Position numbers and translations under genes: made by a program
From: Linanthus parryae
Lineage: Eukaryota; Streptophyta; Magnoliopsida; Ericales; Polemoniaceae
Direction: 5' to 3'
DNA length: 64,000 nt
Assembly (NCBI GenBank): GCA_023055425.1
Contig: JALGPY010000005.1
Coordinates: 8,395,501-8,459,500, forward strand
Notes under the pieces: model-generated
The model's database searches: none
What the model was told of the DNA's origin: nothing
The model's input: only the letters and a program-made list of their open reading frames with translations
In this document: positions 5,863-63,573 of the stretch, piece after piece
How positions within the stretch are numbered: the stretch's first letter is position 1
Layout of the letters: each line of letters starts with the position of its first letter

Positions 5863-5867
5863 AACGT
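5863..5867. repeat. Target-site duplication of element B, left copy (AACGT)
   Basis: AACGT directly before the TGACACGC end of the left LTR of element B, repeated at 29601-29605 directly after the TTATCA end of the right LTR. The uninterrupted site can be seen in element C's homologous exon, where GTGGGGTCAAC runs straight into CCACTG near 16100. Confidence 0.95.
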
Positions 5868-17555: not shown

Positions 17556-17558
17556 CTG

Positions 17559-18037: not shown

Positions 18038-18053
18038 GCAGAAAGGGGGCTAA
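18038..18053 (+). other. Polypurine tract of element C
   Basis: GCAGAAAGGGGGCTAA directly precedes the TG of the 3' LTR. The same tract precedes element A's LTR at 31719-31734. It confirms + orientation, opposite to the gene the element carries. Confidence 0.85.
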
Positions 18054-18680: not shown

Positions 18681-18685
18681 AGTGG
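18681..18685. repeat. Target-site duplication of element C, right copy (AGTGG)
   Basis: AGTGG after the LTR end, pairing with 9778-9782. Confidence 0.95.
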
Positions 18686-20123: not shown

Positions 20124-20225
20124 TTTAACCAAGGAGAACAAGATAAAGCAAGTAATGTAACAAAAACAAGCACGTGCACAGTGACAAGTTGTGTACAAAT
20201 ATACGGCAATTAAACACGTAAGCAC

Positions 20226-20932
20226 ACAATCCTAGGACTTTAATCAATCGCCCCCAAGCACGCTTCTAAGCGCAACAAAAAGTAAATTGGGCTTTTACTC
20301 AATTGTGCCTAGACTCGAGTATTGAAATTGTGCGAGAGATTAGGACGTACCTACGTGCCCGGAGCAAGTCTTACGGGCACGAATTTTCAGAATTTCGACA
20401 ACCCGGGCTGTTTTAGGGTCGCCGAAATTTTTGTTCCGAATTGTTCAATTGACGTGTGCCTTTTGCTCCTTGCGGTGTCCCCGTCGAAACCCTAGAATAG
20501 CTCCTTCGAATTCGACCTCAATCGCCCCCAATTTCAGATTCTTCCTCAAACCCTAGTCTTGCCTCCTTCTTCGATTCACCACCAATTTGAGTTGTGGTAG
20601 TGGTGGTGATGGTCCTGTGATGGTGATGGTGGTGGTTGGAGATGGTGGTCGTGGCTGAGAGAGAGAGTTGGCGGCGGCGATGAGGGTTTGCGATGGTGAA
20701 GGAGAGCTCTGCTGTGAGAGGGAGAGAAGGCTGCTGGGTTTTGTGAGAGAGAGAGAAGAGACGAAGCTGGTGGCGTTGGTGAGAGATTGTGCGGACGGTG
20801 AGGCGGCGGTGGTTACAGGTGGTGGTGGCTGGGGGTGGTGATTGCAGAGGAGAGGAGAAAGGTTCGACGGGATGAAGTTGGAGAGAATAGTAGAAAAAGC
20901 TTTGTTTTAACCCATTGACTGCCCGTAAGAAA
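20226..20932. other. Element B spacer upstream of third ORF, with telobox-like motifs
   Basis: Read on the + strand this looks like a plant gene leader: AAACCCTAG at 20489-20497 and 20551-20559 (telobox-like), then CT-rich sequence, then a GGT/GGAGA-rich stretch (20588-20880). Relative to the third ORF on the - strand it is upstream DNA and would hold its promoter or a leader intron. No protein recognised. Confidence 0.35.
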
Positions 20933-21303
20933 GTAATTGTACGATTACTTTCAGGTAATCGTACGATTACTTGAAAGTAATCGTGCGATTACTTGTGCTA
21001 CGAATGGGCAGTGAGTTTTCATGAAAATTCACCAACAAAATTTTTCTAAGTAAGAAGTAATCGTACGATTACTTCTGAGTGATCGTACGATTACTTTTAA
21101 AGTAACCGTACGATTACTTTTAAGTAATCGTGCGATTACTTTTAAGGTAACCGTACGATTACTTTAAGGTAATCGTACGATTACATTAAAGTAATCGTGC
21201 GAATACTTTCGTACGAATGGGCAGTGAGTTTTCTCCAAAATTCCACCCCAAAAATTTTTCTAAGTCAAAAGTAAACGTACGATTACCCTAATCGTACGAT
21301 TAC
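20933..21303. promoter_or_regulatory. Internal array of twelve GTAATCGTACGATTAC-type palindromes
   Basis: Twelve perfect or one- to two-base variants of the 16-bp LTR palindrome in 371 bp, upstream of the third ORF. Part of the cluster is duplicated: each half contains ACGAATGGGCAGTGAGTTTT followed by a related stretch ending AAATTTTTCTAAGT. Shared placement in the LTR and ahead of the only other separate ORF suggests a common control element. Confidence 0.75.
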
Positions 21304-28134: not shown

Positions 28135-29600
28135 TGACACGCTCCAACTGCAAGTGCACAGTTGTCGGTGTAGTAATAATCGGAAAAGTCCGGTTTGTCG
28201 AACCCAAGGGACTTCGTGTAAACTAACTATTAAGTTTGTTCTTTATGTGGGCAAAACGCAGTTGTTTTGTGGTTCCTAATTCTACTAAAAATTCAAATAA
28301 CAATTATCTCAAATAATTCAAAGAATTATTTCAAGATTAACGAGCACGAGTTGATATTGTTGTGTATCAAGTTTGATTAAATTCAGGATATCTCTACGGA
28401 TCACTAGGAATGTCACACTACGTTGGATTTATGTTTTACTAACACGATAATTTCTTATTCTAGTTAAACGAGCAATTGCATATTGAAGATGTCTCAACCA
28501 ATAACTATGCCTAAACTATCGTAACTGATTCCTCTAGCTTACTCAAGTTCAAACACGCATTACGATACTAATTTCTACTCTTGTTCTTAGCTAACTAGCA
28601 AGATTCCTCAACCCTAGATACGGCTAGTGTGTATTTCAATTTTCCGGGCAACGAACGTAGATTCCTCTATCGTTCATAACCTAGCACAATCCTATTGACA
28701 CGTCTATCAATAAAAAAGATAAATTAGAAACATAAAATACACATAACTAAAGAAGAAATCATCAATTAAGCTCAAAAGCATGAGAGTAAATCCATAAACC
28801 ACAAGTTGTAGCGATCAAACCCTAGTTTCCTACGAGATATCCCAAAATAAGGGTTTAGCTACTCATAATCATGTTCATAATACAAAGTTTCATGATCAAG
28901 TATCAAAAACTAGAGAAGAAAAGAAGAAGAGAAGCCAAACGGATGATCCAAGCTCTCGACCTAGCTCCCAAGCACTCCAAGCACGACTCCCAAGGTGTGT
29001 TCTGATGTTGAATGTCGTTCCCCAATGTTTCCTAAGTCTTTTGTGGCTTCAAACTCCCAAAACTATGCCAAAATAGCGAAAACAGCCCAAAAATTCGATC
29101 CTGGCCGCAGAGGTAATCGTACGATTACCTTGATGTAATCGTACGATTACTTGCCTCATAGGTAATCGTACGTTTACATCTAAGTAATCGTACGATTACT
29201 TCTGGATGAAGGTAATCGTACGATTACCTTGAGGTAAACGTACGATTACTTCTGGTCTTCCACCATTCAATCTTCAACTTCTTGCTCTTTTTCCTTTCGT
29301 CTTCACTTCCCGAGCATCCCTTTGAGCCTCCAACCTTTCCGAAGTTCACTTTTGCTCCAATGTCACGTCCCGAGCTCCCGGTTCCTGAAAACCACAACAC
29401 GAGAAACATACCGGAAGATCAAACGTGATAAAATATAGCCAAAATCAATGCAAAAAGTGCCCGGACTCATCATTAACGTGCAAAGGCTCAACATGCTCAA
29501 CTTTAGCAAGAAATGATCCAAAATCTATCAAAACGCATCGGAATACACGCAAAACGGTAAGGAAACATATAAGAATATAACTCCAAATATGGAGTTATCA
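28135..29600 (-). repeat. Right LTR (5' LTR) of element B
   Basis: 1466 bp, partner of 5868-7332. In element orientation it starts TGATAACTCC and ends GCGTGTCA next to the PBS. The six-palindrome array is at 29113-29249. Confidence 0.95.
29113..29249. promoter_or_regulatory. Array of six GTAATCGTACGATTAC palindromes (right LTR)
   Basis: Same order and same variants as in the left LTR. Being in the 5' LTR, this copy is about 350 bp from the upstream end of the LTR, a plausible position for promoter or enhancer sites of gag-pol transcription. Confidence 0.8.
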
Positions 29601-29605
29601 AACGT
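29601..29605. repeat. Target-site duplication of element B, right copy (AACGT)
   Basis: AACGT after the LTR's TTATCA end, pairing with 5863-5867. Confidence 0.95.
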
Positions 29606-31046
29606 CCACGGTAATCTTCTCATACCTCGGCGCGAGCTCACGGATATGCTCTGCGAGGGCAGGAAGGGAACCTCGCAGACACCAGCAAAAGAACTCGCGA
29701 TAGCGCTCATGGAAGTGAGGTCCCCTTTCAAAGAGAAGCTCTTCTGAAAAGACCATGCCTTTAGAGGGGTACAGCTTTGGAAACCATCTCACATTCTCAA
29801 TACGCGTGGCATAGGGCCTGGCAGTAAACTCCTTCCGTTTGTCGCATATCAAACTCCAAACGCACTTGGGGTTGCCTGTTCCGAACCATCTCGCAGCTCT
29901 TCCGCTGTTACGTGCTTCTGTCTCGCCTGGGGGACACCACTTTTCAAGTTGGAGAGCAGTTGGAGCATAAGACGGCCAGCGCTCGAACACCCACATTGTC
30001 AAAAAAGAAATATTGACAAAGGTCAGTACATCGAGGCGGCCACGCGACTCCCTCATAGCCAGAACCAGCTGATCAAGCCTATAGTACAGCGTGCCCAAGA
30101 CCAAGGGTCCGAGTGCGACCCTCTGGCCAAGAGCGAGCCTCACAGCAAGAGGCAACACATGGTAGAAGACTCCATCATGGGGGTGACCATCAATCAGATA
30201 CCTTGACAGCCAGGCACAGAGAAAAGCACAAAGGGTCAAATGATAGCCCTTGCCCTCTACGTAATTCTCGGCCTCCGGGTCCTCGTTCAGAAGCTTCTTA
30301 GTAATGCTGCTGTTCGCATAATCGCGAAAGAAGTACTGCAACCATTTATTCCAGGTATTCTTCGCGGATGTATCAACCAGCTGCCAGTTAGGAAGAGGCT
30401 TGGTAGTGGTCCACCGAGTGGAAATTTTCTTCACCTCTGCCAAGCATTCCTCCATCTGCGTGTACAAGGCAATCTCCGCAGATGTCCTCAAGGGAGTCAG
30501 AGGGTCTACTTCGCCCATGGGGGAAAGCTCGTACAGCATTTGCACGTCCTCGAGCGTAGGGGCAGCCTCGAACTCAGCAAAATGGAACGTATGAGTCGCA
30601 GGCGAGTAACGGGACAGAAGGTCTAGAAGCATGGACTGATCCAACTTCACGGCAGCACCCTTCATAGCCTGGATAGCAAAGTATACGCCGGCTTCATTAA
30701 GAGTCTCGGCGTGATGATCCAATACGTGGTCAATCCACTCATCCATATAGTCCAATTTCTGGACGAACGCCTGAGTAGAAATCGCAGTGTATGGGAAGTG
30801 CCCGTTTTCGATTCCCAATCGAACTACATCCTCGGAACCAACCCACTCGAGCAGGGCTGAGTTAACTGGGCGATTCAACGTCAGCAATCGCTCAACTGGA
30901 ACAGGATCAGGCATCCTCTTCGCCTTTACCCTCGCATGGTAATAATCTTTGCCGCCTAAAAAGGGGGCTTTTCGCCACAAGGCCTGCGGAAGGTCGGGTA
31001 TCTCTTCATATTCCTTGACGGGTCTGGTTACTCTTGTCTTGGCCAT
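29606..31046 (-). pseudogene. Antisense plant-mobile-domain gene of element A, 5' part
   Basis: First coding exon up to the point where element B is inserted. ATG at 31046 (MAKTRVTRPVKEYEE), two bases after a polypyrimidine-CAG splice acceptor, as in element C. The plant mobile domain is complete here: THTFHF and PTLEDVQMLYELSP near residues 151-175, the WLQYFFRDY and FLCAWLSRYLIDGHPHDG helices, LALGQRVALGPLVLGTLYYR, and TMWVFERWPSYAP. The last residues before the break are RYEKITVDV; the exon resumes with DPTRVSPQFGFD at 5862. It shares most residues with element C's exon, and the reading frame has no stop. Confidence 0.75.
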
Positions 31047-31049
31047 TCC

Positions 31050-31718
31050 TGCGAAAGAGCAAGAAAAAAAGGGGGAGAAATACCACACTTCAGTTTGAAT
31101 TTTGGGATTCAAGATCTATGCAAAGGAAGACGAGCAGTTCCGGTATCGATTTCAAAAATTGGGGAGTTGCAAGATCCAATATTGTTGAAAGATTAAAACG
31201 AAGCGGGTTCAAAGATCAAAGCCTCTTCACAGATCTCATGGGTTTACAGATTCAACGCAGTTCAAGGCAAACACTGGTATTTTAAATCAAAAGTAAACGA
31301 GGCCAACCTTGTTTTCTTGAAGCCTGCTTGGATATGCACAATTGGAGAATACGATTTGCAGTTCTGAACTGGTGATTGATTATCTGGATCTGCTCTCGAA
31401 GATCTCCGGGTACCATTCACTTTAAGAGAAAGAAGTGATGCTTTGCAATAATGGGGGATGCAAGTTATTTACCCAAAACAATGAAGGGTTGCGTCCTTTC
31501 GATAGTCGAATCGCAACCGTCACCGTCGAATCGCGCAATCACAGGACAAGCTGACGTCACGCCTAAAACCCTAAAGGTCAGACGGCACGACTCTAGGGGT
31601 TTTAGGTCATAATGACACGCACGGGGGCTGAACTTACCCGTATTTGAATTGGTGCGTGGCGGCGACGCGTATGTTGGTTTCCGCGCATGGAAGTCTATAC
31701 GGCTATGAGTCTTCACGC
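31050..31718 (-). other. 5'-UTR intron and leader of element A antisense gene
   Basis: On the - strand a strong donor (ACGG then GTAAGTT) lies at 31631-31637 and a pyrimidine-rich acceptor ends at 31049, giving a possible ~588-bp 5'-UTR intron. That would place the transcript start between 31640 and the LTR, or inside the LTR. Element C's donor is altered. No other gene in this stretch. Confidence 0.4.
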
Positions 31719-31734
31719 GCAGAAAGGGGGCTAA
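31719..31734 (+). other. Polypurine tract of element A
   Basis: GCAGAAAGGGGGCTAA next to the 3' LTR, identical to element C's. Confidence 0.85.
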
Positions 31735-32363
31735 TGTAGATACTGCTTTCTGACATGACAGATCTTGGCCACGTGGCAGCCATCCAGCACACCATATTGT
31801 GCTCCGTACACACAGGATCACCAGCCGAGCTGATCCATGTGGGGGCTGCGAGACAGAGCCCTCGCATACCACTGCACGGGACTTGTAGGGACTTAGTGGT
31901 TTGGAGGCTAGAGTAAGCCCTGTCGCGTGCGAGCCAAGCCCGCGCGCGACCTTTAGTAACTGTTTTGAGAGATTTATGGCACGAGCTCCATAGACCCGGT
32001 CAATCCGGTCAAACCCGGTCAACCTCGTAACGGTTCCGGTATTCGCGCACCACGTGCTATAACGGTTCCTATATGCTCGGACGAACGTGCCGTTATGGTT
32101 AAGCTAATTAAGCCGCCATTAATGGGCGCATTAACCACACTACAACGGTCACGTTCTCCAGTATATATATATATCGTTAACCTTTCCATACAAAAGGGAA
32201 CACACTTGTCATACGCGGAAGCTCTGCCAAACCTCTGTCTCTCTCTCAGACATTGCTACTGACTTACTCTCTCCCTACACACACCCCTATTCTTCCTGTG
32301 CGATCCTTGATCCACTACACACGGTGCACACGGAGGTCTCCCCGCCGGAATCTCTTGTGCACA
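31735..32363 (+). repeat. 3' LTR of element A
   Basis: 629-bp LTR of the family seen in element C, with scattered substitutions and a longer TA run at the TATA box. TGTAGATACT to TTGTGCACA, followed by GGGTT, the expected TSD; the other copy is left of the window. Together with the integrase end at 1-289 it frames element A, which is split by B. Confidence 0.9.
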
Positions 32364-35993: not shown

Positions 35994-36258
35994 TACTACC
36001 TCTGTTTCTTCTCTTTCAATGGGGTTAACTTTTGTTACCCGTAACTGCGTCTCTTTGATTCAATGATTTGGATAGCGAAACGATGTAATTTTTTGACATT
36101 TTTTTACATAGTATTGTACAGGAAAGTTTACTCTACAAGATCATGCAAAGATTATCAAATTCGTGTATCGTTTTGCTAACCAAATTATCGGGTCAAAGTG
36201 ACCCAATAAATAGTGTCAAAAAGTGAAGTAAGCTGAAAGAGAAGAAACAGAGGTAGTA
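35994..36258. mobile_element. Stowaway-like MITE
   Basis: About 265 bp; ends TACTACCTCTGTTTCTTCTC and GAGAAGAAACAGAGGTAGTA are exact inverted complements for about 20 bp, including the TA target. Internal sequence (GATTTGGATAGCGAAACGAT, CGTTTTGCTAACCAAAT) is related to the MITE at 35254-35503, so both belong to one family. Confidence 0.85.
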
Positions 36259-37301
36259 GAAGGTATAAGGCTTTTGCAAAAAGGGAGTCTAATTTCTCAT
36301 TTTTTCTGAATTCTTAATACATGAGTTGTAGAGAGGGAGTTTGACTTTAGCATTCAGAAGGAGAAATTGAAATGCCCATAAATGGTATTTTACGGAAAAA
36401 CCATTTTCATATTTTTACTTTGATCTCGATGAACGAAATTCAGTTTTATTTATTAATAGTCTAGATTAGAATTAATATTTGTATCCGGAATATAAACATT
36501 GAAACTTTTTGATTAGGAAGACGAGGTGTTATTTATTTTTTAGTATGGCATGGTCTACCAAATTATGTTGCGTAATTTTTAAATATTTCTTATTACAATA
36601 AATTTCATCAGTGTCCAATGACCATGCGTCATTTATTTATATAGGTATGTTGTCGACTATATTTAATTTCCATTGACTTCAACTTGTCAGTATTTGGGTT
36701 TGGACCCGAGCTGACCCACGAGAACTTTGTCAGTATGCTATAAGACCTGGACCCATACACATATCCTACAGGTCTAACCCGAACTAGCTTTATTCTTAAT
36801 CTCTATCTCTCTCACATTAAGGGCAATCTCATCCCAACCCCTCTCTCATTAACGACAATCTCAGCCCAAATTAAATTTTTATTAGAGACCATTTAATATT
36901 TTTGCTATGATATAGAAATTCTCACACACACACATATGTATATAATGCGCAAATGACGATTTATACATTCATGTTGGCTCATATTCATTTAGTTTGATTG
37001 AGTTACCTAGTTGTGATTTTTTCATGTATATTTGTGAGTTTTTAAAGTTTTTCAGGACTAAATTTCAATTATAGAAAAATATTATTAGGTTAACAGTGAT
37101 TTGAACCGGAACTGAACCGTTTATAGGCGAATCAAACCGTTTATAAATGGTTCGGTTTAGGTTCAGATGTTTTCCAAACCGAGAATTTAGGTTCATTTCG
37201 GGTTTTGGTGCAACTCGGACCGTACCGAACCATTTACACCCCTACTTGCTGCATTACTTAGAACTGAGCTTCTCTCTTCTTCACCGTCAAGAAGAAAAAA
37301 T

Positions 37302-37994
37302 TTGGATAGCCTGCTTCAGAAGCGCAAAAGATCAGAGGGTTGCTCAAGGAGGTTATTGGGTGGTAAGAAAGAGCAAACCCGTAGTGATAATCCTATGATA
37401 GGCTATGGAGTACCACAGAACCAGAACTAGTCCCCCTATCTAAGAATTGAAACCTTCCCGTAGGCGCCATGGGGGCTCCTTATTTTTACTGTGAGAATAT
37501 TGCGCGAGCACCAATAGAGGTTTGGGACAGCATGAGGAGGTCCCTTTTTGAAATTGGTCATGAGTTTGTTGATTCCAAGTATTTCTTTTTGGCAACTAGG
37601 AAAAGAGGGTACATCCATAATCTACCCATTGCCAAAAGATTCCCAATTCTTTCATTTGCGTCCCGAAGAATTCAGGAGGCATTTCCATCGATGGGGAAGT
37701 GGTGGCCAGTTTGGGATACTAGAGAGCACTTGAACTGTTTGCGAACTAGGGTCGCCGGAGACGAAGTCGTGAAGGGAGTTCGAAAGATTATTGAGAAATG
37801 GGGTGGAAATCCCCATCCGGTCGTGCAGAGAAAAGTGCTAGAGGTGGTTCGGAAATGGAACATTGTCTGGGTTGGGTTGAATAAGGTTGCTAAACTAGAA
37901 CCTGATGAGGTAGAAAAAGTTATTTGGGTTACCGATTGACCATATCAAGGGTATCATCTTGACAAACAAATACAAATCACTCGGTAATTCATTT
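37302..37994 (+). pseudogene. DRM-type DNA methyltransferase fragment, unit 1 sense arm
   Basis: Coding-like fragment of a domains-rearranged (DRM) de novo cytosine-5 methyltransferase, the RNA-directed DNA methylation enzyme. Recognisable: APYFYCENI (motif VI, ENV-like), HEFVDSKYFFLATRKRGYIHNLP, KWWPVWDTREHLNCL, VWVGLNKVAKLEPDE (before motif IX), then in the next frame LGLPIDHIKG and KYKSLGNSF (motif X). DRM enzymes have motifs VI-X before I-V, so this is the first half of the catalytic domain; the SAM-binding and Pro-Cys catalytic motifs are absent. Broken by a 1-bp loss near 37409 (GAGTACCACAG against GAGTACCCACAG in later units) and by a 1-bp gain before LGLP that all copies share. No introns seen. 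Confidence 0.85.
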
Positions 37995-38029
37995 TGTATT
38001 TGTTCGTCAAGATGATACCCTTGATATGG

Positions 38030-38667
38030 TCAATCGGTAACCCAAGTAACTTTTTCTACCTCATCAGGTTCTAACTTAGCAACCTTATTCAACCCAACCC
38101 AGACAATGTTCCATTTTCGAACCACCGCTAACACTTTTCTCTGCACGAACAGAGGGGGATTGCCACACCATTTCTCAAGAATCTTTTGAAGTCCCTTCAC
38201 GACTTTGTCTCTGACGAACCTAGTTCGCAAACAGTTCAAGTACTCTCTAGTATCCCAAACTGGCCACCACTTCCCCATCGATGAAATGCCTCCTGAATTC
38301 TTCGAGGCGCAACGGGAAGAATTGGGTATCTTTTGGAAATGGGTAGATTATGGATGTACCCTCTCTTACTAGTTGCGGCAGAGAAATACTTGGAATCAAG
38401 AAACTCAGGATCAATGTAAAAAAGGGACCTCCTCACGATGTCCCAGACCCCTATTGCTGGTCGCTCAATATTCTCACAGTAAAAATAAGGTTGCCCCTTG
38501 GAGCCTACTGGAAGGTTTCTATTCGTAGTTAGGGGGACTAGTTCTGGTTCTGTGGGTACTCCATAGCCTATTATAGAATTATCACTACAGGTTTGTTCTT
38601 TCTTACCACCCAATAACCTCCTTGAGCAACCCTCTGACATTTTACGCTTCTGAAGCAGGCTATCCAA
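38030..38667 (-). pseudogene. DRM-type methyltransferase fragment, unit 1 antisense arm
   Basis: Inverted copy of the same DRM fragment: PYFYCENIERPAIGVWD, DPEFLDSKYFSAAT, RGYIHNLPISKRYPILPV, then a frameshift (one C lost in CATTTCATCGATGG) before MGKWWPVWDTREYLNCL and EPDEVEKV. Several residues (DPEF, GVWD) are closer to DRM proteins than those of the sense arm, so the arms have diverged independently. It would pair with the sense arm in RNA. Confidence 0.85.
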
Positions 38668-39614
38668 TATTTTTCTTCCTTACAGTGAAGAAGAGAGAAG
38701 CTCAGTACTAAGTAATGCAACAAGTAGGGGTGTAAATGGTTCGGTTCGGTTCGAATTGCACCATAAACCGAAATGAACCTAAATTCTCGGTTTGGAAAAA
38801 ATCTGAACCTAAACCGAACCATTTATAAACGGTTTGGTTCGCCTATAAACTGTTTGGTTCCGGTTCAAATCACTGTTAACCTAATAACATTTTCTATAAT
38901 TGAAATTTAGTCTTGACAAACTTCAAAAACTCACAAGTGTACATGAAAACATCACAACTAGGTAACTCAATATAACTAAATGAATATAAGTCAACATAAA
39001 TGTATAAATCGTCATTTGCGCAATATATACATTTGTGTGTGTGTGTGTGGATTTAAATAACAGAGCAAAAATTGATATGGTCTCTAATAAAAGTTTAATT
39101 TGGGCTGAGATTGTCGTTATTGAGAGAGGGGTTGGGCTGAGATTGCTCGTAATGGCATAGAGGGAGAGATTAAGAATCAAGCTAGTTCGGGTCAGACCTG
39201 TCGGATCTGTGTATGGGTCCAGGTTATAGCATGTGGGTTAAGCACATATAGGCCGAGTTTATGTCAAGCTCTCGTGGGTCAGCTCGGGTCCAAACCTAAA
39301 TACTGACATGTCGAAGTCAATAAAAATTAATTGTGGTCGACAACATACATATACAAATAAATGACACATGGTCATTGGACACTGATGAAATTGATTGTAA
39401 TAAAAATAAATTGAAACAAAATTTGGTAGACCGTGCCATACTCAAAAGAAGAACATAACACCTCGTCTTCATAGTCAAAAAGTTCCAATGCGTAGATTCC
39501 GGATAAAAATTTGATTTTTTTTAGGGAATAAAAATATGAATTCTAATCTAGACTATTAACAAATAAAAATGAATGTCGTTCGTCGAGATCATAGTAAAAA
39601 TAAGAAAACAGTTT

Positions 39615-39875
39615 ATACATACATACATACATACATATATACATACATATACACACATGTATGTGTATACATACATACATATATGCACACACACACACAC
39701 ACTATATATATACACACACACAAAATACACACACATCTGTATGTATATGTATGTTTATATATATATGTATATGTATGTGTGTGTGTATGTGAGTATATGT
39801 ATATATTCATATATATATATTATATATATATAAATACACATAAACATACATATACGTGTGTGTGTAATATACATA
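39615..39875. repeat. Unit 1 microsatellite (TACA/CATA, CA, TATG)
   Basis: Alternating purine-pyrimidine tract of TACA, CACA, TATA and GTAT runs directly at the end of the right foldback arm. Tyr/Thr/His-rich frames across it are artefacts. Confidence 0.9.
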
Positions 39876-40135
39876 TATATAGACATATATGGCACCTACC
39901 TATGTATTATATACGAAAATTAGGTATTAATGGTTTCTCGATGTACGATATAAGATTACATTGTCTACATTTTCTTGTTTGTTGATTACAAAATACTTCT
40001 TTCTTCTCATTATCAAGGAGGATATTGGCTGGCCAACGGCTAACCAAACAAGCACATTATATTTACTATGATATAAATTTGAGCTCGTTCACCTTGCGTG
40101 ATCCATGTGATAATGTAGATGACAGTAATCTATAA

Positions 40136-40398
40136 AAAAATATATAACGGATATTAGATATATAAGATAAATACACAAGCAATTTCACAAAAGGACACTG
40201 ATGAATCATCACACTCACATGTACCAAGCAAGGTGAAATATTTTTATACCAAATCGTCTTTGTATCTTCATTTACCGAATTTACATAACACGTTTCACCT
40301 TGCTCGGTACATGTGAGAGTGTCGATGCGTTATTGTCATTTGTGAAACTGCTTTTGTACTGAATTCAGTCAACTAATTTCCGTTATATCTTTTGTTAC
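40136..40398. mobile_element. Unit 1 small hairpin element (MITE-like)
   Basis: About 260 bp. AAGCAATTTCACAAAAGGAC through TCACATGTACCAAGCAAGGTG on the left is mirrored by CACCTTGCTCGGTACATGTG through GTGAAACTGCTT on the right. Outer ends (TATAACGGA / TCCGTTATA) also pair. No gene. Confidence 0.7.
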
Positions 40399-41399
40399 GT
40401 TTTTTTTTTTTTTTGAGGGAACGTTGTCTTTATTTATTGAATTAATTGGCAATTTTCACACATGGTATGATGCACGTGAGTGTGAGCTTAAATAATTTCC
40501 TTGTTGTGATATTACATTTGAATTTATCTCACTAATCTAAATAAATTATTAAATGTAGTGTCACTAATTAAGAAATAAATATGCATTATCTTATTTATTT
40601 ATTTGATTTTAGATCGATATGGTCATTAATTATGAAATGAATACTTGGTATCATTAATTAAAAGGTAATAATGAAAATTCTAAAAATGAACAAGAGGCAG
40701 TAGTGAAATATTAACTTGACGTGTCATTGGCTAGCAAATGTGATGCAACAGAACATAACTTATAGAGTGTATATTATATTAACTGCAAGTATTTGGTGGA
40801 AATTGGAGTTTTCTACAAGTTTGAGGACAACATAAGTCATATTAGCCATAAATTAACGAGTGATTGTTTGTAAATCAAAAATTATTAGAGGTAACAGTAT
40901 TTTCTTGGTAGAGAGTTGATCTCTCTCTCGCCTCCTTTTGATTTGCGAATTCACGAGATAAAGACGAGATCAATCTTGTGTTTGTTGATCATATGCTCAG
41001 TGTAACATGTTATCGAAGTGAGAAGTGGAAGAAAAATTTGGGATGAAATTAAGGCGTAATTTGTCATTTTGGTGTATATTGGAGATTTGATAACTTAAGA
41101 GGGGTATACTTATAAATAACACTAATTTTAATGAACCTGGTTAGAAGGTGCAAACAATCCAAATCGAGACGAGTACGACCTGGTTCGGCTCGACTCCTTG
41201 GAGAATATTCTAGGCTCTGGTTTGGCTTGAGCTCACTTGGACCTTAACATGCGAGGTTCAAGCTTGGCTCTGAAATATTACCAGTTAGAGCATGGCACCA
41301 CCTCGTCGACTAAAGAACTCGAGCTTTCAGACTCGTTAGGTCTGAGCTTGTCTAGAAGTGTATGTAAGTACTAACTAATAATGTGTACAACCCTTAATC
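40399..41399. other. Unit 1 AT-rich spacer
   Basis: No gene recognised. Starts with a T run (40400-40415). Near 41140-41350 there is a GC-richer stretch with degenerate CTCG/GAGC repeats. Units 2 and 3 have the same content at 48805-49806 and 57374-58374. Confidence 0.5.
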
Positions 41400-42765
41400 T
41401 AAAACAAACTCACGATATGTGCGGAAAGCATCACAACAAGCCTAATCATGGTAAAGAAAAACATCATATGGTCATCACGCAACGGTGAAAACATCGGCGC
41501 TTTCAGAGATGCCTAGCTCTATAAGCCTCATTCTTTCACGACAATTACCCCAGATTAGAGACCATGACAATGGTCAATGAGCTCATCATCGTATAAATCA
41601 GTTGGGATCTAGGAAAATTTAACATCATGTTTTGAAAAGAAGATATAGCATAAGTCACTAGAGTCTCTATCCCAAACACTGAAGAAGCAACTAGATGAAA
41701 GGTGGGATGCACACGATAAAATCTGGGTATCAACTCATGCAACATATTGAAGAAATGCAGAATCAATATAAAATAAGGGAGAGATCAAGTACACTACCCA
41801 CCAAATCATGGTGGTCCACCTTCTGCAACTAAAAAATACCAAAAATATTGCTATTTTTATCTGAAGGGGAGTCAATAAAAGCTTACCGGTAAAATGGAAC
41901 ATCAAGAAAATATAAATGGGCTTGAACACCACCTACCCAATTTGCGGCCGAGAAGAAGAAACAGAAGGCCACATTTTCTTGTTTATCCTATCTCCAAATA
42001 GATCTGGATCGTCAGGCAAGTATGGACCACCTAAAAGAGATATATGAAGATTTCAACATTTGCTTTCTGCTATACATAAAAGGAAAGAGAAGATATTTTC
42101 ACACCTTTAGGAATAATTTGGAAAACAAAAATAAGATCCATAGCAGAAGAGATTATCGGAGAAGGAAGAAGAATCTTACCGGAGTATAGATCAGCAACTA
42201 TGTGACATAATTGTTGACCCGAATCAGAACAACGCTCCGGTAAACTGCACTTGGTCAAATCCCCCTCCAAGCTAGGTTAAGATAGATGTGGATGCGCTAT
42301 GAGACAACCAGAGGAAGAAATCTACCGTCGGGTAGTCATCGGAGCAACAAAGGTGTCTTTATCTCCGATAAAAGGCATAGTGATCCCCTCTAGATCAACG
42401 ACAAAAGAACGAGAGACCGCATCCATGAAGGAAGGGATGATTCTAGCCATGGAGATGAATCTCCAAACGGTACTATTTGAGATTGTCAGTATCAATGTTG
42501 TGAGAGAAGTGAGTCGAAGAAGAGAAAGAGGACCAAGGGGTATTGACCACTCATATAGTGGAAGAGGCATCGAGATGTGCGTGAAGCAGTTACATCACAT
42601 CGGAAGCGCTATAGTGCATTATTACTCAGAGCGCACTAACCAGTGTGCTCATCTTTTCTATAGACATAGATTATTATATGATAGATTTGGTGTATGTCAC
42701 CAAAAAAAAGTCTCCGTGATTTTATGCATGTATTACTAAATGACATACTATGCCCAATGGCCCAT
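41400..42765 (+). pseudogene. Unit 1 decayed LINE ORF2 tail
   Basis: Fragmented frames in consistent order match a plant L1 ORF2 C-terminus: NGENIGAFRDAWLY-like, then MHTIKSGYQLM and WWSTFCNLKIPKILLFL (zf-RVT region), then TWSNPPPS and VKIDVDAL (start of the RNase H-like domain), and, after a frameshift, GATKVSLSPIKGIVIPSRST, EGMILAMEMNLQTVLFEIVS and ERTNQCAHLFYRHRLLYDRF (42299-42739). The 3' end runs into an A/T-rich tract near 42780. Many stops; no function. Confidence 0.65.
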
Positions 42766-43747
42766 CAATAAAGAACAAAATTTATTTTTTTTTTACAAAA
42801 AAAAAAATCAAGATATCACTCTTTAGGGCATTTTTTTTATTATTTGACATTACATTAGCTTTTTTAAGTATTTTAAATGTTACAAAGAAATTACATTAAC
42901 TATCATTAGTGAATGACTCGTCGATAAATGTAATAGACAAATTTAGAAACTATATTAGTTTTAAACAATAAAATATAAACAAAAATTATGACAATAATAA
43001 TGCGTTAATAAATAAACTTAGATAAATGAATTTAGATCACACTGGTCGTACGTGAAAATATAATAGAAATGATAAACTGCCTAAGAAAATACATAGTTAC
43101 TAAAAATAACAATAAACCACACAAATGACAAAAACACAATCAAGAACAATAGAATTAACATAATAATGGAATACACGGTGACTTTCCGTCACAATCTAGA
43201 TGAAATCCTTGTCTTGGTAGAAGAAGTCTTTTTGCACAGTTATGGGATAATCATGGTTAAATAGATTAGATTGGTCAATTAAACTTCTTGAAGTGTTATT
43301 CAAGTTTCTTTTATCTACATAAATTTGCGTACTGATTTATTATATTATTGTGGTTGTATAAACATTTTTTTTTCAATTTAATTATTTTGTAATTTCGTAT
43401 AATATAATTTCAGTAATAAAATGAATATTTATTTTGATAGTTATGAAATTCATGATTTTGTGTCAAATTTGGTGATTTAATGTGGGGGTCAAAAACATAA
43501 TTATCAAATTTGATGAAATGGTTAGATACTAATATTTAAATATCTGTTGCAAAAATGGTGAAAATTGTATGAGGGCAAAAATACCATTTAAAATGGTGAA
43601 ATGATGTATTTGAGGGTCAATTGTGGGAGACCAAACCATTATCCTCCACCTAGTATAGATTTTGATTGAAATTAAACCTCAATTGTGGAAGATATACTTG
43701 TGACTCTCCTAAGCCCAAACCTCATGCACAGACAAGTGGATATGTTC
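42766..43747. other. Unit 1 AT-rich spacer
   Basis: No gene recognised; strongly AT-rich. Equivalent stretches in units 2 and 3 are 51169-52154 and 59736-60722. Confidence 0.5.
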
Positions 43748-43750
43748 TAA

Positions 43751-44958
43751 GGCCTCGTTTAGGTAGCGGATATAGTACACTGGACATGATGTATGCCAGG
43801 ATATGAGGTATGATATGTATGTTGTGGGATAAGGGAGAATATAAAGTTTTATTTTCTTGTGTTTGGGTGATGCAACAAACTCATAAGCAACTTACCAAAA
43901 AGGGACGAAAGTGCAACTATGAATCTCATGGAGAGTTCGGTCATGGCTCATGATGAACCTCCTACCAAAAGAGAATATGAGTCTTTGTACCACCTAGAAT
44001 TGGGGGAGCTATCCTTCTTTGAATGAGGCGTCATGCTGGGCATATCATTTTTCTAGAAGAGTCGGAAATGACAGATGCGGCGGGATATGATTCATGATAT
44101 GAACAACTGTTAGTGTGAAAATGACCCCACCGTCCTGCAATGTCAAGAATTTGGAAGCAAAACTGTTATCTTATGATTTTTCCAACACTACTACTACTAA
44201 ATACTTGAACAGGAAAATTTGCTACTAAAATTTCAACTCAAGGTATTGGCAGTAGCAACTATAAAAATTGGATCTTCACATCCCTAATCTTACCACAAAA
44301 GAACCCATAACACAGCATCGTAACTTAAACGTGTGAAAATTGAAAACCCACCATGGGAGCGCCTTCCCGCCGATTTTCTTTGATGGGACGAACTATTTTT
44401 AGAGAGAGAAAGCCCTAATATTTGTTGGAGGAGTAATCAATCAGTAAGCTATGGAGACAATCAAGTCTTTGCGAATTATAACCCACCAATCTTTCTTTGA
44501 CGCCGTTCGAAAGGAACATGATGCCAATTTTGCTGAAGCCGTCTATTATCGTCATCGCCCACGATCTGAGTCTCTTAGTTTGACATGATGATGATGGTGG
44601 TGGTGCGGTGGGAGGAGGAGGGAGAGGAGGGCAGAGGATGTGGAGGTGGAGATACGTCGACCAGAGACGAGGGGGAGAAAGAGTGAAGGGTAGAGGGAGA
44701 GGAAAGTGAACATTTGAGGATTTTGTGTATTTATAGTGTGTTATTTTGTGATTTTGATGAGGGCATCAATAAAAAAGAACCCAAATTATATCCCACTTAT
44801 ACCATTGTGGGGGCTATATGTTTCAAGGAAATAATGGGGGAGGGGGGATATGGATGAGATTTGATATCCCTCCAATACCCGCCTCTCAAACAAAAGAAAT
44901 GATTTGGGAGAGATATCATATCAAATCCCTCCCCCATATCCGCTACCCAAACATGGCC
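43751..44958. mobile_element. Unit 1 PIF/Harbinger-type non-autonomous element
   Basis: 1208 bp between GGCCTCGTTTAGGTAGCGGA and the inverse end ATATCCGCTACCCAAACATGG CC, with the 3-bp duplication TAA at 43748-43750 and 44959-44961. TAA targets and GG(C)CCTGTTTGG-like ends are characteristic of Tourist/Harbinger elements. It contains no transposase. It holds a 45-codon frame (44451-44588) and a GA-rich stretch. Confidence 0.85.
44451..44588 (+). CDS. Small ORF inside the Harbinger-type element, unit 1
   Basis: ATG to TGA, 45 residues (METIKSLRIITHQSFFDAVR and on, ending RPRSESLSLT). Open and apparently unchanged in units 2 (from 52864) and 3 (from 61429). I do not recognise it; it could be a captured first exon, as the flanking sequence (AAAGCCCTAATA leader-like, GATG/GGTGG downstream) looks gene-like. 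Too short to be sure. Confidence 0.3.
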   Translation: METIKSLRIITHQSFFDAVRKEHDANFAEAVYYRHRPRSESLSLT

Positions 44959-45869
44959 TAAGGGAATCTCCAACCATATCCGCTACTTTGATCTCGATGA
45001 ACGACATTCAGTTTTATTTATTAATAGTCTAGATTAGAATTAATATTTCTTTCCGGTTTATACACATTAAAACTTTTTGATTAGGAAGACGAGGTGTTAT
45101 TTATTTTTTTAGTATGGCATGGTCTACCAAATCATGTTGCGTAATTTTTAATTATTTCTTATTACAATAAATGTCATCAGTGTCCAATGACCATGCGTCA
45201 TTTATTTATATAGTTATGTTGTCGACCATATTTAATTTCCATTGACTTCAACTTGTCAGTATTTGGATTTGGACCCGAGCTGACCCACGAGAACTTTGTC
45301 AGTATGCTATAAGACCTGGACCCATACACATATCCTACAGGTCTAACCCGAACTAACTTTATTCTTAATCTCTATCTCTCTCACATTAAGGGCAATCTCA
45401 TCCCAACCCCTCTCTCATTAACGACAATCTCAGCCCAAATTAAATTTTTATTAGAGACCATTTAATATTTTTTCTATGATATAGAAATTCTCACACACAC
45501 ACATATGTATATATTTTGCAAATGACGATTTATACATTCATGTTGGCTCATATTCATTTAGTTTGATTGAGTTACCTAGTTGTGATTTTTTCATGTATAT
45601 TTGTGAGTTTTTAAAGTTTTTCAGGACTAAATTTCAATTATAGAAAAATATTATTAGGTTAACAGTGATTTGAACCGGAACTGAACCGTTTAAAGGCGAA
45701 TCAACCGTTTATAAATGGTTCGGTTTAGGTTCAGATGTTTTCCAAACCGAGAATTTAGGTTCATTTCGGGTTTTGGTGCAACTCGGACCGTACCGAACCA
45801 TTTACACCCCTACTTGCTGCATTACTTAGAACTGAGCTTCTCTCTTCTTCACCGTCAAGAAGGAAAAAT

Positions 45870-46508
45870 TTGGATAGCCTGCTTCAGAAGCGCAAAAGAT
45901 CAGAGGGTTGCTCAAGGAGGTTATTGGGTGGTAAGAAAGAGCAAACCCGTAGTGATAATCCTATGATAGGCTATGGAGTACCCACAGAACCAGAACTAGT
46001 CCCCCTATCTAAGAATAGAAACCTTCCCGTAGGCGCCATGGGGGCTCCTTATTTTTACTGTGAGAATATTGCGCGAGTACCAATAGAGGTTTGGGACAGC
46101 ATGAGGAGGTCCCTTTTTGAAATTGGTCATGAGTTTGTTGATTCCAAGTATTTCTTTTTGGCAACTAGGAAGAGACGGTACATCCATAATCTACCTATTG
46201 CCAAAAGATTCTCAATTCTTTCATTTGCGTCCCGAAGAATTCAGGAGGCATTTCCATCGATGGGGAAGTGGTGGCCAGTTTGGGATACTAGAGAGCACTT
46301 GAACTGTTTGCGAACTAGGGTCGCCGGAGACGAAGTCGTGAAGGGAGTTCGAAAGATTATTGAGAAATGGGGTGGAAATCCCCATTCGGTCGTGCAGAGA
46401 AAAGTGCTAGAGGTGGTTCGGAAATGGAACATTGTCCGGGTTGGGTTGAATAAGGTTGCTAAATTAGAACCTGATGAGGTAGAAAAAGTTACTTGGGTTA
46501 CCGATTGA
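45870..46508 (+). pseudogene. DRM methyltransferase fragment, unit 2 sense arm
   Basis: 212-codon frame without an ATG (it opens at a TTG before DSLLQKRKRSEG). In this numbering: NPMIGYGVP at 30-38, motif VI ENI at 65-67, RKRRYIHNLP at 100-109 (the usual G is R here), KWWPVWD at 133-139, VGLNKVAKLEPDE at 191-203, ending by the shared frameshift at VTWVTD. The motif X codons present in units 1, 3 and 4 are deleted here. Confidence 0.85.
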
Positions 46509-46515
46509 CCATATC

Positions 46516-47065
46516 CGAACCACCTCTAACACTTTTCTCTGCACGAACGGAGGGGGATTGCCATCCCATTTCTCAAGAATCTTTTGAAGTCCCTTCAAGA
46601 CTTTGTCTCTGACGAACCTAGTTCGCAAACAGTTCAAGTACTCTCTAGTATCCCAAACAGGCCACCACTTCCCCATCGATGAAATGCCTCCTGAATTCTT
46701 CGAGGCACAACGGGAAGAATTGGGTATCTTTTGGAAATGGGTAGATTATGGATGTACCCTCTCGTACTAGTTGCGGCAGAGAAATACTTGGAATCAAGAA
46801 ACTCAGGATCAATGTCAAAAAGGGACCTCCTCATGATGTCCCATACCCCTATTGGTGGTCGCTCAATATTCTCACAGTAAAAATAAGGTGGCCCTTTGGA
46901 GCCTACTGGAAGGTTTCTATTCGTAGTTAGGGGGACTAGTTCTGGTTCTGTGGGTACTCCATAGCCTATCATAGGATTATCACTACGGGTTTGCTCTTTC
47001 TTACCACCCAATAACCTCCTTGAGCAACCCTCTGACATTTTACGCTTCTGAAGCAGGCTATCCAA
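46516..47065 (-). pseudogene. DRM methyltransferase fragment, unit 2 antisense arm (centre deleted)
   Basis: Antisense copy that starts inside the FVQRKVLEVVR region: the arm's central ~150 bp, coding for the EPDEVEKV and motif X end, are gone. It keeps PYFYCENIERPPIGVWD, the frameshift before MGKWWPVWD, and LNCLRTRF. The hairpin can still form, with a loop of unpaired sense sequence. Confidence 0.85.
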
Positions 47066-48010
47066 TTTTTTTCTTCTTGACAGTGAAGAAGAGAGAAGCT
47101 CAGTACTAAGTAATGCAACAAGTAGGGGTGTAAATGGTTCGGTTCGGTTCGAATTGCACCATAAACCGAAATGAACCTAAATTCTCGGTTTGGAAAATAT
47201 CTGAACCTAAACCGAACCATTTATAAACGGTTTGGTTCGCCTATAATTTGTTTGGTTCCGGTTCAAATCACTGTTAACCTAATAACATTTTCTATAATTG
47301 AAATTTAGTCTTGACAAACTTCAAAAACTCACAAATGTACATGAAAACATCACAACTAGGTAACTCAATATAACTAAATGAATATAAGTAAACATAAATG
47401 TATAAATCGTCATTTGCGCAATATATACATTTGTGTGTGTGTGTGTGAATTTTAATAACACAGCAAAAATTAATATGGTCTCTTATAAAAGTTTAATTTG
47501 GACTGAGATTGTCGTTATTGAGAGAGGGGTTGCGCTGAGATTGCTCGTAATGAGAGAGAGAGAGATTAAGAATCAAGCTAGTTCGGGTTAGACCTGTCAG
47601 ATCTGTGTATGGGTCCAGGTTATAGCATATGGGTTAAGCACATATAGGCCGAGTTTATGTCAAGCTCTCGTGGGTCAGCTCGGGTCCAAACCTAAATACT
47701 GACATGTCGAAGTCAATAAAAATTAATTGTGGTCGACAACATACCTATACAAATAAATGACACATGGTCATTGGACACTGATGAAATTGATTGTAATAAA
47801 AATACATTGAAACAAAATTTGGTAGACCGTGCCTACTCAAAAGAAGAACATAACACCTCGTCTTCATAGTCAAAAAGTTCCAATGCGCAGATTCCGGATA
47901 AAAATTTGATTTTTTTTTAGGGAATAAAAATATGAATTCTAATCTAGACTATTAACAAATAAAAATGAATGTCCTTCGTCGAGATCATAGTAAAAATAAG
48001 AAAACAGTTT

Positions 48011-52157: not shown

Positions 52158-53368
52158 GGCCTCGTTTAGGTAGCGGATATAGTACACTGGACATGATGTA
52201 TGCCGGGATATGAGGTATGATATGTATGTTGTGGGATAAGGGAGAATATAAAGTTTTATTTTCTTGTGTTTGGGTGATGCAACAAACTCATAAGCAACTT
52301 ACCAAAAAGGGACGAAAGTGCAACTATGAATCTCATGGAGAGTTCGGTCATGGCTCATGATGAACCTCCTACCAAAAGAGAATATGAGTCTTTGTACCAC
52401 CTAGAATTGGGGGAGCTATCCTTCTTTGAATGAGGCGTCATGCTGGGCATATCATTTTTCTAGAAGAGTCGGAAACGACATATGCGGCGTGATATGAATC
52501 ATGATATGAACAACTGTTAGTGTGAAAATGACCCCACCGTTCTGCAATGTCAAGAATTTGGAAGCAAAACTGTTATCTTATGTTTTTTCCAACACTACTA
52601 CTACTACTACTAAATACTTGAACAGGAAAATTTGCTACTAAAATTTCAACTCATGGTATTGGCAGTAGCAACTATAAAAATTGGACCTTCACATCCCTAA
52701 TCTTACCACAAAAGAACCCATAACACAACATCGTAACTTAAACGTGTGAAAATTGAAAACCCACCATGGGAGCGCCTTCCCGCCGATATTCTTTGATGGG
52801 ATGAACTATTTTTAGAGAGTGAAAGCCCTAATATTTGTTGGAGGAGTAATCAATCAGTAAGATATGGAGACAATCAAGTCTTTGCGAATTATAACCCACC
52901 AATCTTTCTTTGACGCCGTTCGAAAGGAACATGATGCCAATTTTGCTGAAGCCGTCTATTATCGTCATCGCCCACGATCTGAGTCTCTTAGTTTGACATG
53001 ATGATGGTGGTGGTGCGGTGGGAGGAGGAGGGAGAGGAGGGCAGAGGATGTGGAGGTGGAGATACGTCGACCAGAGAGGAGGGGGAGAAAGAGTGAAGGG
53101 TAGAGGGAGAGGAATGTGAACATTTGAGGATTTTGTGTAATTATAGTGTGTTATTTTGTGATTTTGATGAGGGCATCAATAAAAAAGAACCCAAATTATA
53201 TCCCACTTATACCATTGTGGGGGCTATATGTTTCAAGGAAATAATGGGGGAGGGGGGATATGGATGAGATTTGATATCCCTCCAATACCCGCCTCTCAAA
53301 CAAGAGAAATGATTTGGGAGAGGTATCATATCAAATCCCTACCCCATATCCGCTACCCAAACATGGCC
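52158..53368. mobile_element. Unit 2 PIF/Harbinger-type element
   Basis: 1211 bp, same ends and TAA duplications (52155-52157 and 53369-53371). Carries the same 45-codon frame starting at 52864. Confidence 0.85.
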
Positions 53369-54279
53369 TAAGGGAATCTCCAACCATATCCGCTACTTTG
53401 ATCTCGATGAACGACATTCAGTTTTATTTATTAATAGTCTAGATTAGCATTTATATTTGTATCCGGAATATACACATTGAAACTTTTTGAATAAGAAGAC
53501 GAGATGTTATTTATTTTTTAGTATGGCATGGTCTACCAAATCATGTTGCGTAATTTTTAATTATTTCTTATTACAATAAATTTCATCAGTGTCCAATGAC
53601 CATGCGTCATTTATTTATATAGGTATGTTGTCGACCATATTTAATTTCCATTGGCTTCAACTTGTCAGTATTTGGGTTTGGACCCGAGCTGACCCACGAG
53701 AACTTTGTCAGTATGCTATAAGACCTGGACCCATACACATATCCTACAGGTCTAACCCGAACTAGCTTTATTCTTAATCTCTATCTCTCTCACATTAAGG
53801 GAAATCTCATCCCAACCCCTCTCTCATTAATGACAATCTCAGCCCAAATTAAATTTTTATTAGAGACCTTTTAATTTTTTTGCTATGATATAGAAATTCT
53901 CACACACACACATATGTATATATTGCGCAAATGACGATTTATACATTCATGTTGGCTCATATTCATTTAGTTTGATTGAGTTACCTAGTTGTGATTTTTT
54001 CATGTATATTTGTGAGTTTTTAAAGTTTTTTTGGACTAAATTTCAATTATAGAAAAATATTATTAGGTTAACAGTGATTTGAACCGGAACTGAACCGTTT
54101 ATAGGCGAATCAAACCGTTTATAAATGGTTCGGTTTAGGTTCAGATGTTTTCCAAACCGAGAATTTAGGTTCATTTCGGGTTTTGGTGCAACTCGGACCG
54201 TACCGAACCATTTACACCCCTACTTGCTGCATTACTTAGAACCGAGCTTCTCTCTTCTTCACCGTCAAGAAGGAAAAAT

Positions 54280-54973
54280 TTGGATAGCCTGCTTCAGAAG
54301 CGCAAAAGATCAGAGAGTTGCTCAAGGAGGTTATTGGGTGGTAAGAAAGAGCAAACCCGTAGTGATAATCCTATGATAGGCTATGGAGTACCCACAGAAC
54401 CAGAACTCGTCCCCCTATCTAAGAATAGAAACCTTCCCGTAGGCGCCATGGGGGCTCCTTATTTTTACTGTGAGAATATTGCGCGAGCACCAATAGAGGT
54501 TTGGGACAGCATGAGGAGGTCCCTTTTTGAAACTGGTCATGAGTTTGTTGATTCCAAGTATTTCTTTTTGGCAACTAGGAAGAGAGGGTACATCCATAAT
54601 CTACCCATTGCCAAAAGATTCCCAATTCTTTCATTTGCGTCCCGAAGAATTCAGGAGGCATTTCCATCGATGGGGAAGTGGTGGCCAGTTTGGGATACTA
54701 GAGAGCACTTGAACTGTTTGCGAACTAGGGTCGCCGGAGACGAAGTCGTGAAGGGAGTTCGAAAGATTATTGAGAAATGGGGTGGAAATCCCCATCCGGT
54801 CGTGCAGATAAAAGTGCTAGAGGTGGTTCGGAAATGGAACATTGTCTGGGTTGGGTTGAATAAGGTTGCTAAACTAGAACCTGATGAGGTAGAAAAAGTT
54901 ACTTGGGTTACCGATTGACCATATCAAGGGTATCATCTTGACAAACAAATACAAATCACTCGGTAATTCATTT
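54280..54973 (+). pseudogene. DRM methyltransferase fragment, unit 3 sense arm
   Basis: Open for 212 codons (54280-54918), then, one frame on, LGLPIDHIKG and SLGNSF across the loop to about 54973. Has RKRGYIHNLP with the usual Gly. Two changes shared with unit 4: Thr in FETGHEF and Ile in VVQIKVLEV. Confidence 0.85.
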
Positions 54974-55008
54974 TGTATTTGTTCGTCAAGATGGTACCCT
55001 TGATATGG

Positions 55009-55646
55009 TCAATCGGTAACCCAAGTAACTTTTTCTACCTCATCAGGTTCTAGTTTAACAACCTTATTCAACCCAACCCATACAATGTTCCATTTCCGAA
55101 CCACCTCTAACACTTTTCTCTGCACGAACGGAGGGGGATTGCCACCCCATTTCTCAAGAATCTTTTGAAGTCCCTTCATGACTTTGTCTCTGACGAACCT
55201 AGTTCGCAAACAGTTCAAGTACTCTCTAGTATCCCAAACTGGCCACCACTTCCCCATCGATGAAATGCCTCCTGAATTCTTCGAGGCGCAACGGGAAGAA
55301 TTGGGTATCTTTTGGCAATGGGTAGATTATGGATGTACCCTCTCGTACTAGTTGCGGCAGAGAAATACTTGGAATCAAGAAACTCAGGATCAATGTCAAA
55401 AAGGAACCTCCTCATGATGTCCCATACCCCTATTGGTGGTCGCTCAATATTCTCACAGTAAAAATAAGGTGGCCCATTGGAGCCTACTGGAAGGTTTCTA
55501 TTCGTAGTTAGGGGGACTAGTTCTGGTTCTGTGGGTACTCCATAGCCTATCATAGGATTATCACTACGGGTTTGCTCTTTCTTACCACCCAATAACCTCC
55601 TTGAGCAACCCTCTGACATTTTACGCTTCTGAAGCAGGCTATCCAT
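55009..55646 (-). pseudogene. DRM methyltransferase fragment, unit 3 antisense arm
   Basis: Antisense arm with frameshift at EAFHRWGSG as in other units. Unlike the others this arm has a true ATG (55646-55644) before DSLLQKRKMSEG, and a long frame reaches upstream to 55742. It includes PPYFYCENIERPPIGVWDIM and RGYIHNLPIAKRYPILPV. Confidence 0.85.
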
Positions 55647-56587
55647 TCTTTTTCTTCTTGACAGTGAAGAAGAGAGAAGCTCAGTACTAAGTAATGCAAC
55701 AAGTAGGGTGTAAATGGTTGAGTTCGGTTCGAATTGCACCAAAAATAGAAATGAACCTAAATTCTCGGTTTGGAAAAAATCTGAACCTAAACCGAACCAT
55801 TTATAAACGGTTTGGTTCGCCTATAAACAGTTCGGTTCCGGTTCAAATCACTGTTAACCTAATAACATTTTCTATAATTGAAATTTAGTCTTGACAAACT
55901 TCAAAAAATCACAAATGTACATGAAAACATCACAACTAGGTAACTCAATATAACTAAATGAATATAAGTCAACATAAATGTATAAATCGTCATTTGCGCA
56001 ATATATACATTTGTGTGTGTGTTTGGATTTTATTAACACAGCAAAAATTAATACGGTCTCTAATAAAATTTTAATTTGGTGAGAGATTGTCGTTATTGAG
56101 AGAGGGGTTGGACTGAGATTGCTCGTAATGAGAGAGAGAGATTAAGAATCAAGCTAGTTCGGGTCAGACCTGCCGGATCTGTGTATGGGTGCAGGTTATA
56201 GCATATGGGTTTAGCATATATAGGGCGAGTTTATGTCAAGCTCTCGTGGGTCAGCTCGGGTCCAAAACCTAAATACTGACATGTCGAAGTCAATTAAAAT
56301 TAATTGTGGTCGACAACATACCTATACAAATAAATGACACATGGTCATTGGACACTGATGAAATTGATTGTAATAAGAAATAATTGAAACAAAATTTGGT
56401 AGACCGTGCCATACTTAAAAGAAGAACATAACACCTCAGTCTACATAGTCAAAAAGTTCCAATGCGTAGATTCCGGATAAAAAATTGATTTTTTTTAGGG
56501 AATAAAAATATGAATTCTAATCCAGCCTATTAACAAATAAAAATGGATGTCGTTCGTCGAGATCATAGTAAAAAGAAGAAAACAGTT

Positions 56588-56852
56588 TATACATACATAC
56601 ATACATATATACATACATATACACACATGTATGTGTATACGCACATACATTCATATATGCACACACACACTATATATATATACACACACACACAATACAC
56701 ACACATCTGTATGTATATGTATGTTTGTAAATGTATGTTTATATATATATATATATGTGTATGTGAGTATATGTGTGTGTGTGTGTGTGTATATATATAA
56801 ATACACATAAACATACATATACGTGTGTGTGTGTGTAATATACATATATATA
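56588..56852. repeat. Unit 3 microsatellite
   Basis: Counterpart of 39615-39875, again with altered repeat numbers and an extra GTAAATGTATG block. Confidence 0.9.
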
Positions 56853-63538: not shown

Positions 63539-63573
63539 TGTATTTGTTCGTCAAGATGGTACCCTTGATATGG

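Follow-up and report, generated by a model that had tools for sequence, protein, structure and literature searches.

The stretch of Linanthus parryae DNA analysed here (64,000 nucleotides, referred to as the window) contains a tandem array of at least four long hairpins, lying head-to-tail about 8.5 kb apart and built from inverted copies of a DRM methyltransferase exon fragment. The fourth is cut by the window end, as seen from self-BLAST and unit alignment. The array is probably derived from a DRM pseudogene fragment that was inverted by fold-back, decayed neutrally and was amplified in tandem close to retrotransposon DNA. If transcribed, it should give rise to siRNAs, which would most probably act on the array itself. 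The features of the window are as follows.

36391–64000: tandem array with a unit of 8.4–8.6 kb, copies starting at 36416, 44984, 53394 and 61959, running past the window end.
36391–37976, plus strand: left arm of unit 1, about 0.9 kb of non-coding sequence and then the sense part of the DRM exon (inverted pairs I1–I8).
37310–37985, plus strand: sense copy of the DRM exon fragment, with a frameshift and a stop in unit 1 and a frameshift near the 3′ end.
37977–37992: loop of 16 nt, itself DRM exon sequence (SLGNSF).
37993–39621, minus strand: right arm of unit 1, the inverted copy, with its DRM part at 37993–38660.
39622–44982: spacer of unit 1, with a microsatellite and a presumed PIF/Harbinger-like element at 43751–44958.
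43751–44958, 52158–53368 and 60726–61933: the presumed PIF/Harbinger-like element, one per array unit.
44984–48000: hairpin of unit 2, from which about 170 bp of the tip and right arm are missing.
53394–56590: hairpin of unit 3, left-arm frame open at 54280–54918.
61959–64000: hairpin of unit 4, cut by the window end, left-arm frame open at 62845–63483.
5868–29600, minus strand: LTR retrotransposon of 23.7 kb, LTRs at 5868–7332 and 28135–29600.

The palindrome of unit 1 consists of two arms of 1.6 kb each, at about 36,391–37,976 and 37,993–39,621. The repeat finder returned eight inverted pairs (I1–I8), which run outwards from the 16-nt centre at 37977–37992 to 36391 and 39621. An initial annotation had described inverted copies, sense then antisense, around this loop and had recognized DRM sequence in the arm, and both observations hold. 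The inverted repeat is real but larger than the 1.37 kb given there, with a true size of about 3.2 kb (36391–39621). The check proposed in that annotation did name 36.4–39.6 kb and “the array”, although the interval annotated was the core of unit 1 only. Its estimate of about 95% identity for the DRM part is too high, as 605/666 positions (90.8%) were found identical between the arms of unit 1. The corresponding values are 493/548 (90.0%, with 119 gap columns) for unit 2 and 612/666 (91.9%) for unit 3. Over the ungapped columns of unit 1 (left arm 36404–37976), the arms share 1401/1559 positions (89.9%), and in the outer non-coding part 580/659. In the self-BLAST of the window, 36404–39516 aligns with 39608–36470 in reverse, with 87.1% identity across 3186 columns when gaps are included. 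Within 36000–41999, 801 14-mers also occur in the reverse complement of that segment; 20 shuffles preserving mononucleotide content only gave 1.05 on average and 5 at most, so the inverted repeat is not a product of chance.

A segment at 37075–37245 occurs in both arms of unit 1, with 159/170 positions identical, and ends in CCATTTACACCCCTA, an ending taken here to be reminiscent of hAT-type elements. Just beyond the array, at 35994–36258, is a separate small inverted repeat (I9) with 40-nt arms of 83% identity that are 185 nt apart; as an impression only, it looks like a MITE.

The left-arm frame of unit 2 (212 residues) matches DRM chains of the PDB with E-values of 7.6e-58 to 1.6e-50. The matches to 4onq and 4onj stand at about 8e-58, and those to chains named DRM2 at 5e-52 to 1.6e-50. 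No Pfam family was found for the two arm frames tried. Among the 16 relatives displayed, 13 terminate at NSFQV or NAFQV or shortly past it and have differing residues after that point, two continue and one stops earlier. The fragment would therefore fit nearly all of one exon, and the loop would sit a few codons from the exon end. Full-length relatives go on into LSLFSGIGG and GGSPCNNL, presumably motifs I (SAM-binding) and IV (catalytic). The arm fragment ends before both segments and thus cannot encode a methyltransferase.

The reading frame is shifted in the final codons ahead of the loop (LFGLPIDHIKGIILTNKYKSLGNS). SLGNSF, which the initial annotation had counted among the DRM signatures, is indeed present but lies behind an A-run, in a frame that differs from that of the remaining signatures. 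This A-run is the same in all seven arms that span it and is absent from the right arm of unit 2. A 1-nt deletion is common to all four right arms. The left frames of units 2, 3 and 4 (three of the four) are open over 212 codons and start with TTG, not ATG. The left frame of unit 1 carries a private frameshift and one stop.

Identity to the DRM proteins found is 35–56% (best 56%), across two protein searches that returned 7 and 75 proteins, with P0005 in both, and that gave a reference set of 81 distinct proteins. As no match equals the window's own frame, the host is probably outside that protein database, and the lack of a closer parent therefore says little. Conservation was scored over 200 columns for arms L3 and R3, with the 56 of 81 reference proteins whose coverage reaches at least 85% as the comparison set. 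Either arm keeps 41/44 near-invariant positions; conserved positions are kept at 46/71 and variable positions at 34/85. When a DRM exon part of 202 residues was decayed at random in simulation down to 55% identity, a mean of 5.3 stops arose, and 1% of 300 runs had none. There are no stops in the left arms of units 2–4 nor in the in-register right arms, and one in the left arm of unit 1. The near-invariant positions kept and the scarcity of stops make a real, fast-diverging DRM gene the most likely source. The pattern indicates that the arm sequence was under protein constraint before the inversion. Judged by the matches, the fragment is of DRM1/2-type descent, DRM3 being left out of the comparison. 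In the tree, where DRM3 was also left out, the fragment stands on a long branch (0.92) with an unsure placement, and its join with P0045 (support 75) is flagged as a possible long-branch join. No DRM was found in viral contigs, and the Rfam and tRNA scans of the window found no matches.

Fifteen of the 75 protein matches are Hibiscus syriacus proteins with DRM pieces. Seven of these are named DRM1 or DRM2, and two carry the names of a DEAD-box helicase and a shaggy-like kinase. It seems that multiplication of DRM fragments has taken place in Hibiscus syriacus too.

Pairwise identity of the array units is 97.5–99.1% by unit alignment. Arm homology reaches about 25 bp further out in unit 1 only. 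In units 2–4 the left arm begins at a common junction with the spacer end, which suggests that the amplified unit ran from about 36414 to 44982. The loss in unit 2 is joined at 46509–46515, a short string common to both sides. Tip loss of this kind is expected of long palindromes. The spacer holds no convincing coding sequence among the 28 frames listed, three of which were searched against Pfam; the sole match was to RVT_3, below its cut-off (E 0.074). The element near the spacer end, presumably PIF/Harbinger-like by its features, has imperfect GGCC...GTAGCGGATAT ends with TAA flanks. In unit 1 the TAA flanks are found on both sides, and units 2 and 3 again have the left end with TAA as well as the right end.

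The arms record the order of events. Identity is 95–99% between left arms, 95–99% between right arms and 85–92% between left and right arms, with some unit 1 flank included. There are 104 fixed left–right differences in 1433 ungapped columns. As the left arms cluster apart from the right arms, the inversion is older than the array. The left–right dN/dS is 0.92–1.23 across all 16 pairs, which are non-independent, with a dS of 0.08–0.11. As far as can be seen, the arms have drifted neutrally since the inversion. Conversion between the arms of one unit was considered and rejected, as the sites at which the two arms of a unit resemble each other are few; their tightest cluster is a group of three in the right arm of unit 3. 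The run at alignment columns 120–131 is unit 1 flank past the array junction. A rate of about 6.5e-9 per site per year, possibly too fast for a woody plant, would place the inversion at about 6–8 million years ago and the amplification at 1–2 million years ago.

Between units 1–3, the left DRM part differs by 1.05–1.72% (on 7–11 differences), the right DRM part by 1.29–3.44%, the outer arms by 2.3–4.8% and the spacer minus the PIF-like element by 1.5–2.2%. Of all parts of the hairpin, the left DRM part shows the lowest divergence, slightly under the spacer; the right DRM part and the outer arms equal or exceed the spacer in divergence. The left–left dN/dS is 0.29–0.77, on 2–3 synonymous and 2–8 non-synonymous changes, and the right–right value ranges from 0.38 to 2.01 with one undefined. 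The low divergence of the left DRM part, the left–left dN/dS below 1 and the three open left frames of four may be read as weak hints of constraint. The neutral drift of the arms and a hairpin that as a whole is no better conserved than the spacer argue against a maintained function.

The 23.7-kb retrotransposon has AACGT flanks on both sides and LTRs that are 99.8% identical (BLAST). A gag search yielded three matches, at 30–45% identity. Ty3-type gag, protease, RT, RNase H and integrase are encoded at 22.4–28.0 kb. Behind pol there are about 15 kb of extra sequence with a 111-bp tandem array, a plant-mobile-domain frame (15904–17631) and a sub-threshold Transposase_32 frame (18573–20225). 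An older element at 2194–5865 and 29601–32363 is split by the retrotransposon and resembles its interval 12455–18680 (about 88–95%, BLAST). It would seem that the retrotransposon inserted into DNA related to the cargo it carries. The palindromic string AGTAATCGTACGATTACT forms tandem repeats at 6836–6983 and 29104–29251, in both LTRs, and at 20929–21209 in the retrotransposon interior.

The preferred explanation begins with a divergent DRM1/2-type exon which, together with some 0.9 kb of neighbouring non-coding DNA, would have been duplicated head to head. The turning point would lie inside the exon and leave the 16-nt loop, as by fold-back template switching. The 3.2-kb palindrome would then have decayed neutrally. 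The left–right dN/dS, the common A-run frameshift, the private frameshift and stop of unit 1 and the 1-nt deletion of the right arms speak for this history, as do retrotransposon genes in the vicinity and palindrome ends (unit 1) at which no direct repeat of at least 6 bp was found. The stretch of about 8.5 kb with the palindrome would later have been amplified in tandem, probably by unequal exchange, and one copy (unit 2) would afterwards have lost its tip. Any polymerase read-through could yield a near-continuous duplex open to cutting by Dicer-like enzymes. Most of the siRNAs would be expected to match the array they came from and to guide methylation of that DNA, in line with plant RdDM in general. 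Should a host DRM gene be affected at all, this would be a by-product and would depend on the continued presence of a parent gene of close similarity.

The hairpins would have the capacity to form small RNAs. The RNA of 37302–38667 is predicted to form a near-continuous duplex of -1105.7 kcal/mol, a value computed without shuffled sequences of equal length for comparison. Units 1–3 contain 186, 157 and 237 windows of 21 nt that pair perfectly from arm to arm, and the cut unit 4 contains 97; the 24-nt windows number 127, 119, 192 and 81 in units 1–4. With this many perfect 21-nt windows the hairpin would be a good Dicer substrate if transcribed, and the persistence of perfect 21-nt pairing counts against a reading of free decay. 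The 1.6-kb arms and the 16-nt loop have the form of a hairpin siRNA locus, that is, long inverted gene copies with a short spacer. The duplex and its paired windows, together with the reported precedent of miR820 and OsDRM2 (PMC3459959), favour a working natural RNAi locus whose siRNAs lower a host DRM gene, the divergent parent, as a counterpart of the rice system. Such a locus is unlikely, however, given a best DRM protein identity of 56% and arms that drift neutrally. No TATA-like string was seen in the left flank of either unit 1 or unit 2, and the TATA-like strings of the right flank fall within an AT microsatellite. The long-hairpin model is reported to be disputed even for Mu killer (PMC3440606). 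At 35–56% protein identity, canonical DRM2 is an unlikely target, which would leave only a closer, unseen parent gene in that host as a candidate. By analogy with rice, the hairpins might silence a host DRM gene. There is a slim chance that the array is an independent counterpart of miR820, in which siRNAs hold down the fast-evolving DRM paralogue whose coding exon gave rise to the hairpins, so that a pseudogene array would set the dose of part of the silencing machinery.

Capture of a DRM exon by a transposon of the foldback or Mutator-like kind, with very long inverted ends, would account for a gene fragment within a long inverted repeat, and the neighbourhood is rich in retrotransposons. 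This origin was rejected as improbable on account of the palindrome ends, since no direct repeat of at least 6 bp was found between 36371–36420 and 39591–39650 (the ends of unit 1), where the ends are blurred and a short or decayed repeat could escape. The copies are moreover tandem in one array with none seen dispersed elsewhere in the 64-kb window by self-BLAST, and the spacer frames tested (3 of 28) show no transposase. The open 212-codon frames of units 2, 3 and 4 and the left–left dN/dS, on its few changes, would suit a translated, truncated DRM-like protein under selection. This is very unlikely and was rejected, as the left–right dN/dS is about 1 and the frame of unit 1 is broken; the TTG start and the absent catalytic half also speak against it, although the left–left values leave a small doubt. 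Palindromes and tandem arrays are common forms of assembly artefact. An artefact is very improbable here and was rejected, since the arms differ at about 10% of positions, the spacers differ by 1.5–2.2% between units and unit 2 has a private deletion.

Were siRNAs from these hairpins to act on a DRM gene, the locus would represent a further, apparently independent case beside miR820 in which a genome element throttles de novo methylation, and differences in array copy number between accessions would provide a natural test. Even without DRM silencing, the array is a clear record of how a hairpin locus may form, through inversion in an exon, neutral decay, amplification and tip loss.

Among the papers listed, no natural DRM hairpin array is described in the titles or abstract openings. 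In the PAI inverted repeat of Arabidopsis, inverted gene copies trigger methylation of homologues. The PAI copies are near-identical and belong to an expressed gene, whereas the arms described here are 91% alike. Rice pseudogenes have been reported as possible sources of siRNAs acting on themselves or on their parents, with more than half of the antisense RNAs being 24 nt in length (PMC2708354). That work is a genome-wide survey and does not concern a long DRM hairpin. The soybean I locus shares with the present array its repeated gene copies and changes in copy number, but it involves chalcone synthase (CHS) genes, siRNAs and a seed-coat phenotype, in contrast to the gene fragment considered here (PMC6710647). 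The Mu killer locus of maize is a large head-to-head partial gene duplication for which a hairpin RNA was proposed. It derives from a transposase gene that it was shown to silence, and the long-hairpin route has been doubted in favour of short antisense transcripts (PMC3440606). Both loci are reported as examples in which head-to-head or repeated gene copies can silence homologues (PMC3440606, PMC6710647). Another of the closest systems is rice miR820, which is carried by CACTA transposons, represses OsDRM2 and co-evolves with its site (PMC3459959). Both cases feature hairpin-forming DNA that is homologous to a DRM gene and lies in a repeat context. The miR820 stem is homologous to an OsDRM2 intron and gives a 22/24-nt miRNA, whereas the present hairpins have 1.6-kb arms from a coding exon, and no transposon ends were found by the direct-repeat test at the palindrome ends. 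This precedent makes the feedback loop proposed in the initial annotation, with the silencing machinery targeted by a repeat, a plausible idea that has already been published in one form.
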